Assembly (NCBI RefSeq): GCF_028736925.1
Contig: NZ_JAQZAT010000010.1
Span: 62,001-126,000, forward strand
Direction: 5' to 3'
Origin: Flavivirga sp. 57AJ16
Lineage (GTDB): Bacteria > Bacteroidota > Bacteroidia > Flavobacteriales > Flavobacteriaceae
Length of the DNA: 64,000 nucleotides
Under the pieces are notes generated by a model. That model saw only the letters and a list, made by a program, of their open reading frames with translations, was not told the origin of the DNA and searched no databases. This document shows positions 3,010 through 30,212 of this stretch, piece after piece (the first letter of the stretch is position 1; each line of letters starts with the position of its first letter). The position numbers and the translations under genes were made by a program.

Positions 3010-3055
3010 ATGTTGTACCCAAACAAAAAAACCTCTCAAAATTGAGAGGTTTTTT
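3010..3055. repeat. left 46-bp direct repeat (candidate attL)
   Basis: The 46 bases are identical to 10669-10714 in the same orientation. The repeat comprises ATGTTGTACCCAAAC followed by a hairpin (ACCTCTCAAAATTGAGAGGT) and a T-run. The other copy sits just beyond the 3' end of tRNA-Leu. Identity extends outside the hairpin, which argues for a recombination site rather than two unrelated terminators. Confidence 0.7.
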
Positions 3056-3102
3056 TCAAGAAATTAATCTGCGCTTTCTCAAAAGATTCAAAACTTATCT
3101 GA

Positions 3103-4108
3103 TGCTTAACGGAGACTTCTGCGCTCAATGTCATGGTATTGATTCGTTTGATTTACAATAGAGCAATTGCTGATAAAGTTGTAAGCAAAGATTTATACCC
3201 TTTCGGTAAAGGTAGTTTCAAAATCAAATTTCCACAAACCATTAAAATAGGACTTAACAAAAAGGAAATTATACCAATTATGACTCAAAACAACCCCTAT
3301 AATTTGTTTAGTTCACTATCTTTCATTTTAAAAATAGGTGTTCATGAATCTTCGATTTCTATTTTGCTCATATTTCAATATTAAACATGTGCTCAGCTTG
3401 ACTGGGTATAAAATCATAACTAAGGCTATGATTGAATTTTCTATCTTATCTGACCAAAATATAATTCAAATTATTTATAGCTCTTTTTAAATAATAATTG
3501 GTATTACACAACTTGAGAAAGTTCAAAACTTATCAGAAGTACAACGACACTCATTAAATGTTTGGCTTTTCAGTTTTTACTTTGCCGGGATGCGAGTTTC
3601 GGATATTCTTTTTACCAAATGGTCAATGGTTTATGATGGAAGATTGAACTACAGGATGAGCAAGAACACCAAAATTGTATCGTTCAAAATACCCCAAAAG
3701 GTATTGATAATAATGAAGTATTATGAGAAGAATAAAAATGGAGCTGATGATTTTATTTTTCCTGAAATGAAAAAGGCAGGTTTCTGTAATGCCAAAGACG
3801 TTTATAATAAAATTAAAGTAGCGACCAGTAAATTCAACAAGAACCTAAAATCAATTGTTAAAAAAGCTGGAATCAACAAAAAAGTGACAATGCATATTGC
3901 AAGGCACTCATTTGGAAACATTGCAGGTGATGCTATTCATCCTTTAATGTTACAAAAACTTTACCGACACAGCGATTTGAAAACCACCATAAATTATCAA
4001 GCGAATTTTATCCACAAAGATGCGGACGATGCCTTGGATAGCGTAATTAATTTTCAAGGTACAATAAATCATCTTTGCGATTTTTTTAGGGCTAAGCTTC
4101 TGCTTTAA
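3103..4108 (+). pseudogene. tyrosine recombinase (island integrase), N-truncated and split by an insertion
   Basis: The 5' segment (to 3271) encodes the integrase core-binding region with IRLIYNRAIADKVVSKDLY and PFGKGSFKIKFP. The 3' segment (from 3504) encodes the catalytic domain: Arg in GMRVSD, HIARH, His in YRHSD and the Tyr nucleophile in INYQ are all present. Between them lies a 232-bp insertion (3272-3503) flanked by TTA. Deleting the insert plus one TTA joins the halves exactly in frame through NKKEI-TQLEK. The N-terminus is also missing: an in-frame TGA lies at 3100 and the left att repeat lies just upstream. The catalytic fragment could still be translated from ATG 3590 but lacks the arm- and core-binding parts, so the integrase is very likely inactive. 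Confidence 0.85.
3272..3503. mobile_element. 232-bp MITE-like insertion in the integrase gene
   Basis: The ends are TACCAATTAT and ATAATTGGTA, flanked on both sides by TTA (3269-3271 and 3504-3506), consistent with a 3-bp target duplication. There is no transposase. Precise removal restores the integrase frame. A second copy with the same ends and the same TTA flanks lies at 30021-30181. Both interiors carry AGGCTATG. Confidence 0.8.
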
Positions 4109-4449
4109 TACACGTATCTTTACTACCGAATTTTGATTTATTATAATCAAATATGATTTACAGACTAAAAGCGTTTCTCATAATCTGCTTGTAAGCTTCA
4201 AACTTAAAGGAGCCATTTAACAAAGTAGAAGAAGCCTTCAAAATGGGTAAATATGATGATATGATTTTTATGAGATTGGTAAACTCACTTTCAATACTAT
4301 GTTTTGATTTCAAAGTTATTTTGAAAAGTAAATTATTGAACAACACAATCGGCTGATTCTACCTTTTTGGCTACAATAAGCTGAAATTTGGTTATTTCAG
4401 TAAAGACACTAATGCAGAACTTTGTCATATAATTTAAAATTAAAAAATT
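4109..4449. other. gap between integrase remnant and NmrA-like gene
   Basis: No recognisable gene is seen. A 62-residue minus-strand frame (4158-4346) has a plausible composition but no recognisable motif, and I do not call it a gene. The 100 bp before 4450 presumably hold the promoter of the NmrA-like gene. Confidence 0.4.
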
Positions 4450-5337
4450 ATGAAAATCACAGTAACGGGTTCATTAGGCCACATTGGAAGATCCTTGACC
4501 GAGATCCTTCTCGCAGCAAATAACGAGGTGAAGGTCATAAGTAGTTCTTCAGAAAGAATAAGCGATATCATAGCTCTTGGGGCAATCCCTGCCATTGGCA
4601 GCTTAGAGGATATTGACTTTTTAAAAACACATTTTAAAGATGCCGATGCTGTTTTTACAATGGTTCCGCCCAATAATTATTTTGATCACGATTTAGATCT
4701 AACAGGTTATTATAAACACCTTGGAGAAAACTATGCAAAAGCAATTTCCGGCACAGACATAAAAAGAGTGGTGAACCTAAGCACTTTTGGTGCCCATCTA
4801 GAAAAAGGAAACGGAATTCTTAAAGGTGCCCATTATGTTGAAAAAACACTTAACGCCCTGCCTTCAAACATTTCATTGACACATATGCGGCCTACTTCTT
4901 TCTACTACAATCTATACGGATATATTGAAAGCATCAAAGCACAGAACGCCATTTATGCAAATTACGGCACTCACGCTATTCCCTGGGTTGCGCCTGAAGA
5001 TATCGCCAAAGTAGTTGCAGAAGAACTAAGCTCCTTCGACAACAACGAAAAAATCCGTTATGTGGTAAGCGATGAACTTAACGGGGAAGAAACGGCGAAA
5101 ATATTGGGAAAAGCCATTGAAAAACCAAATTTAAAATGGCAGATAGTGGATGATGAAACTGTTATGAATGCACTTAAAAAAGCCGGAATGAACCCTGAAA
5201 TTGCAGAAGGCCTTATCGAAATGTATGCCGCATTGGAATCTGGATTGCTTAAAGAAGATTTTGAAAACAATAGACCCCATACCTTTGGGAACAAAAAGTT
5301 AAAGGACTTTGCCCAAGAATTTGCCAAAGAGTTTTAA
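4450..5337 (+). CDS. NmrA-family NAD(P)-binding protein
   Basis: The 295-residue protein has a Rossmann start with the glycine pattern of atypical SDR/NmrA proteins (VTGSLGHIGRSL, residues 4-15) and VVNLSTFGAH near residue 110. Members bind NAD(P) and act as redox sensors or quinone/azo reductase-like enzymes. The substrate here is unknown. The ATG is preceded by an AT-rich leader. An AraC regulator starts 20 bp downstream on the same strand, so the two probably form an operon. The pair belongs to the cargo of the 3.0-10.7 kb island. Confidence 0.85.
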   Translation: MKITVTGSLGHIGRSLTEILLAANNEVKVISSSSERISDIIALGAIPAIGSLEDIDFLKTHFKDADAVFTMVPPNNYFDHDLDLTGYYKHLGENYAKAISGTDIKRVVNLSTFGAHLEKGNGILKGAHYVEKTLNALPSNISLTHMRPTSFYYNLYGYIESIKAQNAIYANYGTHAIPWVAPEDIAKVVAEELSSFDNNEKIRYVVSDELNGEETAKILGKAIEKPNLKWQIVDDETVMNALKKAGMNPEIAEGLIEMYAALESGLLKEDFENNRPHTFGNKKLKDFAQEFAKEF

Positions 5338-5357
5338 TATAATGATTAATTTTAGCA

Positions 5358-6278
5358 ATGGTCAAAAAATCGCCACATCGATTTAACACTATCAGCGAAT
5401 ATCATACGTTCAGGGGATTACCCGCACCGGAACATCCCCTGATAAGTGTGATTAATTTTGATGACATTAAATTAAAGAAAAACGAACCCGATAGATTGGT
5501 TTCCGGCTTCTATACCATCGCCCTAAAAAGACACCCAGAAGCAAAATTAAAATACGGGCAACAGGAATATGATTTTGATGATGGTGTAATGCTTTTTATG
5601 GCCCCTGAACAAGTATTCGGCATAAAAAACGCTACCAAAGAAAAACCTACGGGCTGGATGTTGATGTTACATCCTGATTTTCTTTGGAAAACGAAATTGG
5701 CAAACAGCATACACAATTATGAATATTTTGATTATGCTATCAACGAGGCTTTATTTCTATCTAAAAAAGAAGAAGCTTCGATAACCAAAATCCTTAAAAT
5801 CATCCAACTGGAATATCACGGCAATATTGACCAATACAGTCATAAAATTATTATTGCACAATTAGATTTGCTTTTTTCCTATGCCGAGCGGTATTATAAC
5901 AGGCAGTTTCTCATCCGGCGAAAAACAAACCATCAAATACTTTCCAGGCTTGAAAATTTATTGAATCATTACTTTGCTGAAGATATATTATCTGTAGAAG
6001 GGCTCCCTACTGTTCAAAAGGTCGCCAATCAAATCAACTTATCTCCTAAGTATTTAACCGGCTTACTAAAGAATGTCACAGGAAAATCAACGCAGGAACA
6101 TATTCATCATAAACTAGTTGAAAAGGCCAAGGAGAAACTTTCTACGACTGAATTAAGCGTGAGCGAAGTTGCTTATGCACTTGGATTTGAACATCCGCAG
6201 TCCTTCAGCAAACTGTTTAAACAAAAAACAAAAATGTCCCCTTCAGGTTTCCGTGAAAGTTTTAGGAATTCAAATTGA
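5358..6278 (+). CDS. AraC-family transcriptional regulator
   Basis: The product has 306 residues. The N-terminal half is a cupin-like sensing domain (YTIALKRHPEAKLKYG, then DDGVMLFMAPEQVF). The C-terminal 100 residues form the paired helix-turn-helix region: VANQINLSPKYLTGLLKNVT, then VSEVAYALGFEHPQSFSKLF and the closing KMSPSGFR signature. It lies 20 bp after the NmrA-like gene and probably controls that gene or the island's redox genes (inference from position). A scrap of a second AraC C-terminus follows at 6371. Confidence 0.9.
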   Translation: MVKKSPHRFNTISEYHTFRGLPAPEHPLISVINFDDIKLKKNEPDRLVSGFYTIALKRHPEAKLKYGQQEYDFDDGVMLFMAPEQVFGIKNATKEKPTGWMLMLHPDFLWKTKLANSIHNYEYFDYAINEALFLSKKEEASITKILKIIQLEYHGNIDQYSHKIIIAQLDLLFSYAERYYNRQFLIRRKTNHQILSRLENLLNHYFAEDILSVEGLPTVQKVANQINLSPKYLTGLLKNVTGKSTQEHIHHKLVEKAKEKLSTTELSVSEVAYALGFEHPQSFSKLFKQKTKMSPSGFRESFRNSN

Positions 6279-6370
6279 CTACTTCCGAGCTTAAACCATA
6301 ATTATTTATAATGTAAAAGGGCTTTCTTGTTGCAAATGGTTCTTTATTTTTCCACATTTATCACTACACA

Positions 6371-6451
6371 CTAGGCGAAGTAGCATTTGAATTTGGGTCA
6401 AGATTTGACATTCTTACTCGGAAGTTTAAAAAAAATCTAAGAGTAAAGTAA
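6371..6451 (+). pseudogene. remnant of a second AraC-family C-terminus
   Basis: Plus-strand translation from 6371 gives LGEVAFEFGSRFDILTRKFK then KNLRVK and a stop. It matches the last helix-turn-helix of AraC proteins (compare SEVAYALGFEHPQSFSKLFK in the adjacent gene). Only about 26 residues survive and no start is present. Confidence 0.5.
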
Positions 6452-6468
6452 AGCTCGTTGAAGCAAAT

Positions 6469-6825
6469 TTAATTCCCAATAATCTTTTTTCTATGTCTAA
6501 TTCCCCAATCGGTCATATTATCTATTATTGTTCTTAGTGTTTTCCCATGCTCGGTAAGCTGGTAATGAATGGTTACAGGATGCGTATCTATAACTGTTCT
6601 TTTAATTAACTGATTTATTTCAAGCTCTTTTAATTCCTTGCTCAACATTTTGTTGGAAATGCCATTTATATCATTTAAAATATCTGAAAATCGTCTTTGA
6701 TTGTAAAAACATATAGATGATAGAATAATTATTTTCCATTTTCCTTTTAGTACATCCAAGGTGTCTTGCACCGCCATCATTTCCTTCTTGTACTCATCTT
6801 GCTTACGTTCTTTACACGCCATCAT
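6469..6825 (-). CDS. HxlR-family winged-helix regulator
   Basis: The product has 118 residues. The HxlR core is clear: DTLDVLKGKWKIIILSSI, RRFSDILNDINGISNKMLSK, LKELEINQLIKRTV and the wing VTIHYQLTEHGKTL. An early CK near the N-terminus (MMACKE) supplies the cysteine that HxlR members often use to sense electrophiles or oxidants. It is divergent from an SDR gene and the shared 104-bp region carries GTTAC repeats, so it probably regulates both genes. Confidence 0.92.
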   Translation of the reverse strand: MMACKERKQDEYKKEMMAVQDTLDVLKGKWKIIILSSICFYNQRRFSDILNDINGISNKMLSKELKELEINQLIKRTVIDTHPVTIHYQLTEHGKTLRTIIDNMTDWGIRHRKKIIGN

Positions 6826-6826
6826 A

Positions 6827-6875
6827 GGTTACTTTGTTACTTCAAGGTTACTGTTACTTTTTGTTACAAAGTAAC
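6827..6875. promoter_or_regulatory. GTTAC-repeat operator region between hxlR-like and SDR genes
   Basis: GTTACTTTGTTAC (6828-6840), GGTTACTGTTAC (6846-6857) and the palindrome GTTACAAAGTAAC (6863-6875) lie in the divergent promoter region. Clustered inverted and direct GTTAC half-sites are what a dimeric winged-helix repressor would bind. Assignment to the HxlR protein is inferred from position. Confidence 0.6.
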
Positions 6876-6929
6876 GAAAATAAATAAAACCAGTTTACAT
6901 TTGAAATCTAATTTAAAATATATTAAAAA

Positions 6930-7676
6930 ATGAATTTCGAAAACAAAAACGTAGTGATCACTGGCGGAAGTACCGGCATAGGATTCGCCACTGCAAAAGC
7001 CTTTATTAAAAACGGTGCCAATGTATGGATTACCGGAAGAAATGCTGATAATCTTCAAAAAGCTTCTTCTACTATTAATAGTTCAAAACTGACAACAGTA
7101 GTTTCAGACACCTCAAATTTAGCAGGGATTGAAGTGTTACAAAAAACCATTGAGGAGCATAAAATCAACATTGATGTTCTTTATTTAAATGCAGGAACAG
7201 CTGTTTTCAGCTCAATAGACCAGGTAACGGAAGCCGATTTTGACGCACAATTCAACACCAATGTAAAAGGAAGTTTTTTCACGTTGCAAAAATTGCTGCC
7301 CAACATTAAGAATGGGGGCTCTGTAATATTTACCTCATCAACAGTGGCAACAGCCGCACTACTGGGATCAACCGTTTATTCGGCTACCAAAGGAGCACTT
7401 AATAAAATTGCGCAGGTTGCATCAAACGAGTTGGCAGAAAGAAAAATTAGGGTCAATATTGTAAGCCCCGGTCCTATCCAAACCGAAGGCCTTGACAGCG
7501 TAATGCCTAGTGCAGATGCAAAAGATTATCTGGCTTCGGTAACGGCATTAAAAAGAATAGGAAATCCGGATGAAGTTGCGAATACGGTGTTGTTCCTGGC
7601 TTCTGATGAGGCAAGTTTTATTATGGGAACTGAATTATTAGTGGACGGTGGCTATACCACGTATGCCCGAAAATAA
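6930..7676 (+). CDS. SDR-family oxidoreductase
   Basis: The 248-residue protein is a classical short-chain dehydrogenase. It has the cofactor motif TGGSTGIG (residues 11-18), LNAGTA, and the catalytic Ser-Tyr-Lys set in FTSSTVA and YSATKGA. The C-terminal LVDGGYTT is typical. Length matches the family. The cofactor is probably NADP(H) and the substrate is unknown. Expression is likely repressed or activated by the divergent HxlR protein. Confidence 0.93.
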   Translation: MNFENKNVVITGGSTGIGFATAKAFIKNGANVWITGRNADNLQKASSTINSSKLTTVVSDTSNLAGIEVLQKTIEEHKINIDVLYLNAGTAVFSSIDQVTEADFDAQFNTNVKGSFFTLQKLLPNIKNGGSVIFTSSTVATAALLGSTVYSATKGALNKIAQVASNELAERKIRVNIVSPGPIQTEGLDSVMPSADAKDYLASVTALKRIGNPDEVANTVLFLASDEASFIMGTELLVDGGYTTYARK

Positions 7677-7830
7677 TTTTTTAAAACTTAGGTAGTTTGT
7701 AATGAATTAGGACTTCTTATTATCATCTATCACTCATTTATACTTTACTACTAAAATCTATTTTAATAAAGAGAGCGACCAAGCAAACAGGAAATTACTG
7801 GCAAATAAATTAGTGTTAGTGTTAAATGTA

Positions 7831-7866
7831 TTTTGAAACTCTTGACTTTTATCAAGAGTTTCAAAA
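7831..7866. terminator. perfect hairpin after the SDR gene
   Basis: Fifteen-base arms (TTTTGAAACTCTTGA and its exact complement) surround a 6-base loop. It probably ends the SDR transcript before the DUF4260 gene. Confidence 0.6.
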
Positions 7867-7911
7867 TTAAAGTTGAAGACCTTTGGTTCTCAATAATTAA
7901 ATTCAGAAATA

Positions 7912-8280
7912 ATGACAAAAGCGATGGGTACTCTTTTAAAACTTGAAGAGGTAGGGATGTTCCTTCTTTCTATTATTTTATTCAATCAACTGGACTATCC
8001 TTGGTGGGTTTTTCCTGCCTGTCTTCTACTACCCGATATTTCTATGATTGGTTATGTGATGAATCTAAGAATAGGTGCCTGGATCTATAATTTTTTTCAT
8101 CATAAACTGGCGGTCATTATTACTTTTATTATGGGGATATGGCTGAATGAATCAGTAATCACTTTGGCAGGGGTTATTTTATTGGGTCATTCAGCAATGG
8201 ACAGGATGTTTGGTATAGGTTTAAAGTACAAAGATCGTTTTACCCATACGCATTTAAGCCGGATTGATACAGAATTTTAG
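7912..8280 (+). CDS. DUF4260 membrane protein (island copy)
   Basis: The product has 122 residues with about four hydrophobic helices. Motifs YPWWVFPACLLLPD, GAWIYNFFHHK and GHSAMDRMFGIGLKY are the DUF4260 pattern. The function is unknown. A second, chromosomal DUF4260 gene lies at 19295-19645 with the same motifs (YSWWWFVALILVPD, GAIIYNVFHHK), so the island carries a paralogue of a resident gene. Confidence 0.88.
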   Translation: MTKAMGTLLKLEEVGMFLLSIILFNQLDYPWWVFPACLLLPDISMIGYVMNLRIGAWIYNFFHHKLAVIITFIMGIWLNESVITLAGVILLGHSAMDRMFGIGLKYKDRFTHTHLSRIDTEF

Positions 8281-8607
8281 CATTAGGAAGGTAGCTACTA
8301 ACAAAGCCTATTAGCAATAATAGTTAGTGGGAGTCACTACTTTTATTCAATTGGTTACCTTCCATATTCACAAGACGATGATTAATTACAAAGTTTTTGA
8401 TTGCTGGTACATTTTCAATATTTGGAATTGATAAGGACTTATAAAAGGGAGAGACAGTGAGGGTGCGGGAGTATGTCTAAAGGCTTTTGTGAAGTACCAA
8501 TACATAGGAAGCGGCACCAAATGAATAATGGAACTCCGATGGAGCGGACTTCGTTCACGATTTCGGATTGGGAATGCAGCCCTTCGACTCCGCTCAGGAC
8601 AGGTGTT

Positions 8608-8642
8608 CCTTCCCGTCCCGATAGTTATCGGGACGGGAAGGG
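8608..8642. repeat. GC-rich hairpin repeat
   Basis: Arms CCTTCCCGTCCCGATA and its reverse complement surround a short loop. It is embedded in GC-richer sequence with a CTTCGACTCCGCTCAGGACA phrase just before it. It could act as a terminator after the DUF4260 gene, but no T-run is present. Confidence 0.5.
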
Positions 8643-8776
8643 TTAACGGAATGAAAAGGAGAAATTGGGGATGGTGTCCAAGACTTTTTAGGGAAGTCCT
8701 TTGCCCGGAATGCAGCTTTTCGCGGAATGGAGGGGAATGTGCTGAACGGATTATGAAATTGAAAATTCAATAATTA

Positions 8777-8796
8777 CCACTATTGCAATAAAGTGG
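8777..8796. promoter_or_regulatory. candidate operator of the abiE locus
   Basis: The imperfect palindrome CCACTATTGCAATAAAGTGG lies about 45 bp before the first ATG of the abiE remnant. AbiEi-type antitoxins are known to autoregulate by binding inverted repeats, so this is a plausible site. Nothing else supports it. Confidence 0.35.
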
Positions 8797-8839
8797 CAAA
8801 TATTTGTATTTAGTTCGAAATATTTACTTAATTCGTACC

Positions 8840-9603
8840 ATGAGTACTAAAAAAGGATTTAAAATAAACCAATTGTTACAGTCCCAACCATCTGGAACAG
8901 TGTTCTTGTCCTCTTGGCTTGTTCAGCATGGTTATAGTCACGCGACCTGTTACGAAAGTACAGGGAAAGTAACTGGTTGACCCCATAGGCTCAGGGGCCA
9001 TGATAAGAATTGGCGAAGAAGTGGGGTATGAAGGCGCTCTATACACATTACAAGAACAATCAGGGCTGAGCGTACATCTTGGAGGAAGGACGGCCCTATC
9101 CCTGCTCGGAAGGGCACATTATTTGGACTTTAACGTGAAAAAAATATTCCTGTTCTGCAAAAGTGGCACTAAACTTCCCACATGGTTTTTAGAGTATGAT
9201 TGGGAAAATAAAATAGAGCAAATAAACACCTCTTTTCTTCCCTCTGATATAGATTTGTCCGCTATAGAGCAAAACATTTTCCATAAAAATATCAAACCCG
9301 GAAAGGGCTATCTTGGAATGTCTTTATTTAACCCCAAAAATCCATTCTTTTTTAGAATCCTACGAACTTATGGAGGGGTTGAACAACCTAAGACCAAACC
9401 ATGTACAAGCCTTGCTTGAACAGTGTAGTTCCGTCAAAGTAAAACGATTGTTTTTATATATGGCCGAAAAGACAGATCACAATTGGTTCAATTACATAAA
9501 AATAGAAAAAGTAGATTTGGGTAGCGGAAAACGGGCACTTTTGAATGATGGGGTCTATATACCTAAATACAATATAACCGTACCCAAAGAATTGGAAGCA
9601 TAA
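8840..9603 (+). pseudogene. abiEi-like antitoxin, three frameshifts
   Basis: Four consecutive segments rebuild one AbiEi-type protein. They are INQLLQSQPSGTVFLSSWLV from ATG 8840, DLLRKYRESNWLTP after a shift near 8943, IGSGAMIRIGEEVGYEGALY after a shift in the CCCC run near 8982, and FSIKISNPERAILECLYLTP after a shift near 9275. The last segment ends with GSGKRALLNDGVYIPKY and stop 9601-9603. The winged-helix N-terminal domain and the C-terminal AbiEi domain are both recognisable. The stop overlaps the toxin start (TAATG), the normal coupled arrangement. With three indels it cannot make antitoxin. Confidence 0.85.
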
Positions 9604-10504
9604 TGGAAATAAGAAATGTATATAAAGCCCAGGTATCACTTTTGTTAAGAGTGTTGCCAGAGGTAGCAAAGGAAAAATGTTTTGCTTTACATGGTTGTAA
9701 GCCATAAATTTATTCGTCAGGGAAATGCCCAGACTGTCTGTGGACGTCAATTTAACCTATGTATCCATAGAAGATAGGGATACTTCAATGAAAAATATCG
9801 TTGAAGCCCTAAAACGGATAAAATCAAGTATCGAAGCTGCCGTCCCCGAAATGCATATTTCCCTTCAGGAGAAAATACTCAAACTTCTTATTTCAATCCC
9901 GAAAGCACAAATAAAACTGGAAGTCAACCAAACCAACAGGGGTGTGATCGATGGCACTAAGGAAATGATGCTTTGTGAAAAAGCCCAAGATGAGTTTGCA
10001 GCATTCTGTGCTATTGATGTAGTCCCATTAAGCCTGCTTTATGGGGGTAAAATATGTGCTGCTTTGGACAGGCAACACCCAAGGGATTTGTTCGATATCA
10101 AATATCTAACACAGAACGAAGGTTTTACGGACGAAATAAAAAAAGGCTTTTTACTTTGTCTATTGGGCAGCAACCGTCCTTTGCACGAAATGCTCAGCCC
10201 AAACCTCACGGACCAAAGTCATGCTATGGAAAATCATTTTGATGGAATGAGCTATGTTCCGTTTTCCTATGAAGATTTTGAAGAAACCAGAAGTCAACTT
10301 ATAACGGCCGTCAAAGAGAGCCTAACAAAAAAAGATAAAGATTTTTTATTGAGCTTCAAGAGCCTTGCACCGGATTGGAGCGTTTACGATTTTGAAAGAT
10401 TCCCTGCTGTGCAATGGAAGCTACAAAATCTTATTAAACTTAAAAGCAATGACCTGTCAAAATACAATGAATTAGTTGGTGCTTTGAAAAATGCATTGCA
10501 TTAA
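9603..10504 (+). pseudogene. abiEii-like nucleotidyltransferase toxin, frameshifted, active site damaged
   Basis: From ATG 9603 the frame gives MEIRNVYKAQVSLLLRVLPE and FALHG, then hits TAA near 9707. A one-base correction continues with AINLFVREMPRLSVDVNLTY and the rest of the DUF1814/AbiEii protein to 10504, including the LDRQHPRDLFDIKY motif. In active AbiEii enzymes the core is GGTAxNLF...DxDLTY. Here the glycine stretch is destroyed at the frameshift and the second Asp is Asn (DVN). The toxin is therefore dead by two independent lesions, which would have permitted loss of the antitoxin. Confidence 0.88.
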
Positions 10505-10668
10505 CAGAAGATTTCCTGTCCCAAATTCATTCTATTTTTAGGACAAAGTGAATATGAAATTAAGATAGGTACTATTATAATTGATCCCTATAATATTCTT
10601 AAACCTCAAAAAATATCAATAGGCATCAAACCCTATTCTAACCGATAAAAAGTAAAAATGTTGTACCT

Positions 10669-10714
10669 ATGTTGTACCCAAACAAAAAAACCTCTCAAAA
10701 TTGAGAGGTTTTTT
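10669..10714. repeat. right 46-bp direct repeat (candidate attR) overlapping the tRNA-Leu terminator
   Basis: Identical to 3010-3055. A partial extra copy (ATGTTGTACCTATGTTGTACC) starts a few bases upstream. The hairpin part lies 28 bp past the 3' end of tRNA-Leu and has a T-run in that transcript's direction. Confidence 0.7.
10684..10714 (-). terminator. terminator of tRNA-Leu, inside the att repeat
   Basis: Stem ACCTCTC/GAGAGGT with a T-run on both strands. It reads as a bidirectional intrinsic terminator. Confidence 0.65.
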
Positions 10715-10741
10715 GACTGCAAATTTACAGTTGAAAAAAAG

Positions 10742-10823
10742 TGCGGGCGGAGAGACTCGAACTCTCACACCTCGCGGCACTAGATCCTAAGTCTAGCGTG
10801 TCTACCAATTCCACCACGCCCGC
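10742..10823 (-). tRNA. tRNA-Leu (anticodon UAG)
   Basis: On the minus strand the acceptor GCGGGCG pairs with CGCCCGC. The D arm is GTGGAATTGGTAGACAC. The anticodon stem CTAGA/TCTAG holds the 7-base loop CTTAGGA, so the anticodon is TAG. A long variable arm and a T arm (GAGAG TTCGAGT CTCTC) follow. The length of 82 nt and the class II shape fit leucine. CCA is not encoded. Its 3' flank is the attachment site of the 3.0-10.7 kb island. Confidence 0.95.
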
Positions 10824-29548: not shown

Positions 29549-30020
29549 ATACTATACCGAAGTGATATGCTTATTTAACCTGAGTTTCTATTTAGATCAT
29601 AAATGATTATAACTCTAATAAAGACAAATGTGCCCTGTGCCGAACTTGTAAAATTAGAATTCTTCTCCTCTTAAATTTAACTACTGTGTGTACACAAATA
29701 ATGCACAATAAAAAGGATTGGTCTCGAATGGCACAAATTTTCACTAATTATTCTGTCTATCGGCAGATTTCAAGTCTATATGGTCTAGGAATTCTTATTC
29801 ATGCTGTGTCCAATCTATTCCTTAATGTATTGGATTCGTGTGAGTTTGTGCCGTTCGTGTCTTTTAAAAATGTGTACTCACGGTAGTTTTCAAAAGGGAG
29901 GATAATTTCGACAAGGCCCAAATTTAGGAGGACTGAACCAGGATAGGTCAATGGGAGGCCTTTTTTCAGATCGACCAAAACTTTTACCTAAACACAACTT
30001 TTGTGCACGATCCCGATTTA

Positions 30021-30181
30021 TACCAATTATGAATTAAAATACGCTATTCAAACTCATTCATTAATTCGTTTTTTCTCTTTACTCATCATTTCCATAGCTT
30101 AGGCTATGCAAATAACTCGTAGCTGGCTAAAACAAATAAGCAATATCGTTTTCTGTAGCTCTTTTTAATTCATAATTGGTA
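30021..30181. mobile_element. 161-bp MITE-like element, second copy
   Basis: Perfect 19-bp inverted ends (TACCAATTATGAATTAAAA and its complement) are flanked on both sides by TTA (30018-30020, 30182-30184). The ends and target duplication equal those of the element that breaks the integrase at 3272-3503. The interior carries TTAGGCTATGC. Confidence 0.75.
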
Positions 30182-30212
30182 TTAGCTATATATCAGAAGA
30201 TATGATCTTGAG

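Follow-up and report, generated by a model that had tools for sequence, protein, structure and literature searches.

Short mobile elements with inverted ends and without a transposase, among them MITE239, MITE464 and BrickBuilt, are described from P. gingivalis in PMC4596501. There the ends of the P. gingivalis MITEs read GAGAC... or ACGTGAGTTCGA... and match IS elements of that species, and BrickBuilt (19 segments) is described as intergenic, as are nearly all copies of the MITE parsed in this work. PIF/Harbinger elements duplicate 3 bp of TWA at the target and bacterial IS5 elements duplicate ANT, as given in PMC4482050; the two are grouped as PHIS transposons (PMC4482050 and PMC12730594), and members of the IS1031 group of IS5 commonly insert at three nucleotides (PMC2516522). 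The broader Bacteroidetes literature on MITEs includes papers on P. gingivalis and Cardinium; none was found for Flavobacteriaceae, where the Flavobacterium matches concerned a bioreactor, Acinetobacter and an Aeromonas plasmid by title. Unlike the P. gingivalis MITEs, the element analyzed here has TACCAAWT ends and a TWA duplication, and no partner element was found for it. It has the 3-bp TWA duplication in common with PIF/Harbinger, whereas the ANT of bacterial IS5 in PMC4482050 differs from it, and the loci examined include no IS5-type transposase flanked by such ends.

The window, a stretch of 64,000 nucleotides from the draft genome of Flavivirga sp. 57AJ16, carries near its left end a tyrosine integrase gene in pieces. 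Local assembly errors are possible at this locus. The features of the integrase region are as follows.

3054..3271, + strand: 5' remnant of the tyrosine integrase, starting at about codon 146 of its relative, with an 11-bp deletion near 3105
3269..3271: TTA, left copy of the 3-bp target duplication (from the sequence and the family pattern)
3272..3503: MITE of 232 bp with the ends TACCAATTAT.../...ATAATTGGTA (from the inverted repeat and the genome copies)
3504..3506: TTA, right copy of the 3-bp target duplication (from the sequence)
3507..4054, + strand: 3' remnant with the integrase catalytic domain (89% DNA identity to the Galbibacter relative L107; PF00589, 3e-14)
4055..4108, + strand: read-through past the lost stop codon (from the ends of homologues)

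The initial annotation described an integrase split by a MITE, and the element has the properties of one. Its inverted arms (I1, 3271-3290 and 3485-3504) are 20 nt long and 85% complementary, and together with the duplicated TTA it adds 235 bp (1 mod 3) and shifts the integrase frame, the left part of which is closed by a stop at 3382-3384 inside the MITE. The longest listed ORF wholly within the 232 bp has 50 aa, there is no transposase gene, and the fold of the element is nothing special (z -0.79). Terminal inverted repeats, a duplication of fixed length, short size without a transposase and many copies in the genome are all found, so that 3272-3503 is a true MITE, ordinary and well defined.

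It was also claimed that removal of the MITE with one TTA restores the frame. The translation then reads ...LNKKEI-TQLEKVQ... (full reading: LNKKEITQLEKVQ), and the DNA alignment to the integrase of Galbibacter sp. EGI 63066 (L107) breaks off at the left flank and is taken up again at the right one with no base extra or missing. The element ends and the 3-bp duplication are as proposed, in agreement with the flanks of the family. Homologues were taken as the best 80 of 264 relatives from a genome scan. The nearest named relative among these 80 is L107, which is 92% identical over the compared part and has the predicted uninterrupted junction as NKKEITKLEK. Homologues with extra residues at the junction, named beforehand as counter-evidence, were not seen: all 80 cover it, and none has a gap or an insertion there (three of them differ by a single residue at a point 7-10 residues downstream). 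The named homologues are nearly all flavobacterial by title. Integrase matches were found in 4 of 11 congeners, at 36-63% identity, and eight phage records carry integrases, all below 30% identity. No empty site of the locus was found in close relatives. The joined translation contains GMRVSD, HIARH, YRHSD and NYQ, identical or alike in L107, which we take to be the stretches with the catalytic residues of tyrosine integrases; in this respect too the proposed catalytic domain with all residues stands.

The L107 integrase is a complete frame of 404 residues, without a MITE, and has arm-binding, SAM-like and catalytic domains (Arm-DNA-bind_5 at residues 7-93, Phage_int_SAM_5 at 104-199, and Phage_integrase). 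By comparison the window integrase lacks the first ~145 of 404 codons, which encode the whole arm-binding domain and some of the SAM-like one. The 5' remnant is 89% identical to positions 3770-3996 of L107, with an 11-base gap that breaks the frame apart from the MITE. Against three further relatives with intact integrases (L108, L088 and L089) the length difference is the same, and the missing stretch is present in all four, while 8 of the 78 homologues covering this site have a protein gap there, so some homologues do differ. At the other end, 75 of the 80 homologues stop within two residues of INF, which lies at 4054 in the window. The limits of the span 3103-4108 given in the initial annotation need correction: homology starts at about 3054, the conserved end is at 4054 and the remainder is read-through. 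The MITE is one of four integrase lesions, the others being the 5' deletion, the 11-bp deletion and the stop loss. These further lesions stay after the MITE is removed, and they make it extremely improbable that the element is a reversible switch whose precise excision reactivates the integrase; the local restoration of the frame, which could be quoted for such a switch, is expected of any insertion with a duplication, and excision itself is hypothetical.

The integrase belongs to a larger locus with the following features.

3010..3055: terminator and TTGTACCC motif copy, putative deletion scar that meets the integrase within a stretch of Ts (46/46 bases identical to 10669-10714)
4450..10504: island cargo, with an NmrA-type reductase, AraC and HxlR regulators, an SDR, DUF4260, a broken AbiEi and AbiEii (Pfam)
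10669..10714: second copy of the 46-bp repeat, adjoining tRNA-Leu (46/46 identity to 3010-3055)
10741..10823, - strand: complete tRNA-Leu, probable attachment site of the island (ARAGORN, Rfam RF00005)

Directly before the intact integrase of all four relatives lies a 3' piece of tRNA-Leu, and ARAGORN detected no complete tRNA gene at that position in any of them. The window integrase is oriented as in L107, with the complete tRNA-Leu at the opposite end of the putative island; the left tRNA piece is missing and the putative scar stands in its place. The 46-bp repeat consists of a terminator-like hairpin and the TTGTACCC motif beside the complete tRNA-Leu. Its left copy joins the integrase within a T run, the T being common to both parent sequences, and we read this join as a probable scar of a deletion. 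The cargo resembles that of the L107 island, where NmrA-like and AraC-like ORFs follow the integrase (by eye from the ORF list). The AbiEi antitoxin-type gene, beside AbiEii (8804-10504), is split over three frames. The locus at about 3054-10741 looks like a decaying tRNA-Leu island, with these limits as its putative extent. Among the congeners, tRNA-Leu and a peptidase gene are kept in 10 of the 11 compared and the DNA beyond them mostly differs, the picture expected of an insertion hotspot. Compared as DNA, the 19-kb regions at tRNA-Leu of all congeners but G003 (10 of the 11) gave no match to the integrase. Two congener regions (L202 and L204) match at ~70% around and left of the window start. 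To the left of the island, in and before the window, are a fragment of a DUF5712 protein (2035-2412) and a FecR/SusCD cluster. DUF5712 is presumably a mobilisation-type family, and the fragment may have been left behind by an older element nearby.

The state of the island bears on whether the integrase was already dead, with the 5' deletion coming first and the MITE insertion being neutral, a reading to which we give a little less than an even chance. The 5' deletion takes away the start and the arm-binding domain, another island gene (AbiEi) is broken as well, and copies of the MITE are rare in open frames (see below), but the sequence evidence puts the events in no order.

Next, we examined the MITE family in the genome. 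At least 53 stretches match the MITE, some of them being two pieces of one copy; the count is a lower bound from 40 scored of 203 first-look candidates. Nine copies including that of the window are full-length or nearly so, and the eight others are 91-99% identical to it, the closest of these eight with 2 differences in 232 bases. The end motif TWATACCAAWTN7AAAA has 240 sites in the genome vs 2 for the reversed motif. When neighbouring ends less than 1 kb apart were paired among the first 100 of the 240 sites, 37 pairs were obtained and 26 sites stayed unpaired. The 3-bp flanks are identical at 36 of the 37 pairs, a figure in which only the middle, free base counts as a test because the pairing pattern required TWA; the sole unlike pair is an 874-bp form. 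Both ends could be aligned in 16 copies, and in 14 of these the flanks are equal and read TAA or TTA. Of the two exceptions, L036 has differing flanks, and the span of L024 enters a neighbouring element, while the right end that belongs to L024 itself gives unlike flanks. We further examined 39 copies (38 loci and the window's), of which 34 could be parsed after four without the TACC left end and one without a right end were dropped. On the left side, where no pattern was demanded, the flank is TWA in 33 of the 34 and GTA in one; the flanks are equal in 27 of the 34, with some right ends uncertain as the script favoured ends followed by TWA.

The smallest element measures 52 bp and the largest 874 bp; 161 bp is the commonest size (12 of the 37 pairs), and longer forms (377-423 and 782 bp) have the same ends and different interiors; segments appear to have been swapped between copies. 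Some long forms (L066 at 610-1483; also L038 and L050) contain a G+C-rich inner segment shared by several copies, which looks as though another repeat had been taken up by the MITE. The window itself holds a second MITE with the same type of ends (30018-30184, 161 bp, TTA flanks). Another small inverted-repeat element lies at 2445-2603 with perfect 15-nt arms, TAACGTGAGTTCGAT; its ends resemble those of P. gingivalis MITE239.

The motif counts in the 11 congeners are 2-54 vs 240 here, which indicates that amplification took place mainly in this lineage, with the reserve that the motif was derived from this genome and that assembly quality varies among the congeners compared. No match to the MITE was found in plasmids, nor in viral contigs by the exact end pattern. 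Among the 34 parsed copies that of the window alone is flanked by long open frames left and right, of 56 and at least 198 codons; elsewhere the open frame on the shorter side is at most 38 codons, and 33 of the 34 lie outside long open frames. Persistence may favour copies located in expendable DNA, and a mobility integrase is expendable alive or dead.

The family would have been moved by a transposase supplied in trans, and we looked for it by its ends. In this genome, five PF01609 loci were scanned and two IS982-type regions read; none of the seven is flanked by MITE ends left and right, and one contains a single inner site. PF13586 gave three loci, in 2 of 12 genomes, one with a single end site and two with none, so that none is flanked on both sides. 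PF13359 had no matches in the 12 genomes, and the PF13612 loci inspected include no partner with MITE ends. The IS4/IS5-type loci (PF01609, PF13586) were therefore set aside as partners; IS982 was likewise rejected, its relics here ending by eye in CTGAGTTCGA-type sequence and not in TACCAA. End pairs 0.7-5 kb apart delimit nine spans among the first 100 of the 240 sites: two correspond to the 782-bp and 874-bp MITEs, five take in the ends of neighbouring elements, and two contain, on reading, ordinary genes with no transposase seen. No such pair was found in congeners G001-G007 and G011 (G008-G010 were counted without being listed). This partial search of a draft genome, 14 small contigs (0.6-2.7 kb) of which are all N, yielded no transposase with MITE ends. 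The 3-bp TWA duplication used to recognize Tourist-like elements of the IS5/PIF-Harbinger kind is present and would place the putative transposase near that kind, the duplication being the basis of this placement. It is conceivable, if unlikely, that a modular TWA-target family underwent a very recent burst in this genome and left the integrase insert among its young products, the transposase behind it either escaping the common IS4/IS5 profiles or having since been lost.

For the age of the lesions we compared the remaining coding sequence. Over 234 codons, 27 silent and 9 replacement changes fall on the window branch, and 21 and 9 on that of intact L107 (changes polarised by the majority of six outgroups, which assigned 66 of 70 differences). 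Replacements are not in excess, so selection probably acted on the gene during most of the time since its divergence. The pattern suggests that the integrase died recently, and its lesions are probably recent as well. It could be taken, together with the young MITE copy and its 2 differences from the nearest sister compared, to mean that the MITE landed in a complete and working integrase and immobilised the island, the deletions coming later. We consider this rather unlikely: the 27:9 pattern equally fits any recent first lesion, the other lesions would disable the gene too (one of them removes ~145 codons and the adjoining attachment region), and the location of 33 of 34 parsed copies outside long open frames fits survival in expendable or dead DNA. 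Two claims of the initial annotation are accordingly not upheld. Exact removal yields the pre-insertion sequence whether the gene worked or not, and does not argue for insertion into a functional integrase. Because the lesion order is not given by the sequence, the MITE does not date the immobilisation of the island; with three other integrase lesions and a broken AbiEi, any of them may have come first.

Leaving the order of lesions aside, we are highly confident that the locus represents a MITE insertion at TTA in the integrase of what looks like a multiply decaying tRNA-Leu island. A non-autonomous DDE-type transposon, from a family amplified in this genome, would have inserted at a TTA and duplicated it, and the island would be decaying by several routes: the integrase lost its 5' part together with the adjoining attachment region, a few further bases and its stop codon, and it received the MITE. 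One visible insertion is a poor basis for dating the loss of mobility, and the locus calls for caution in this respect. As a clean insertion it serves as a reference for the ends and the duplication of a highly amplified MITE family in a bacterium with flavobacterial integrase relatives, and it is an example of an island that loses its mobility through several independent lesions.
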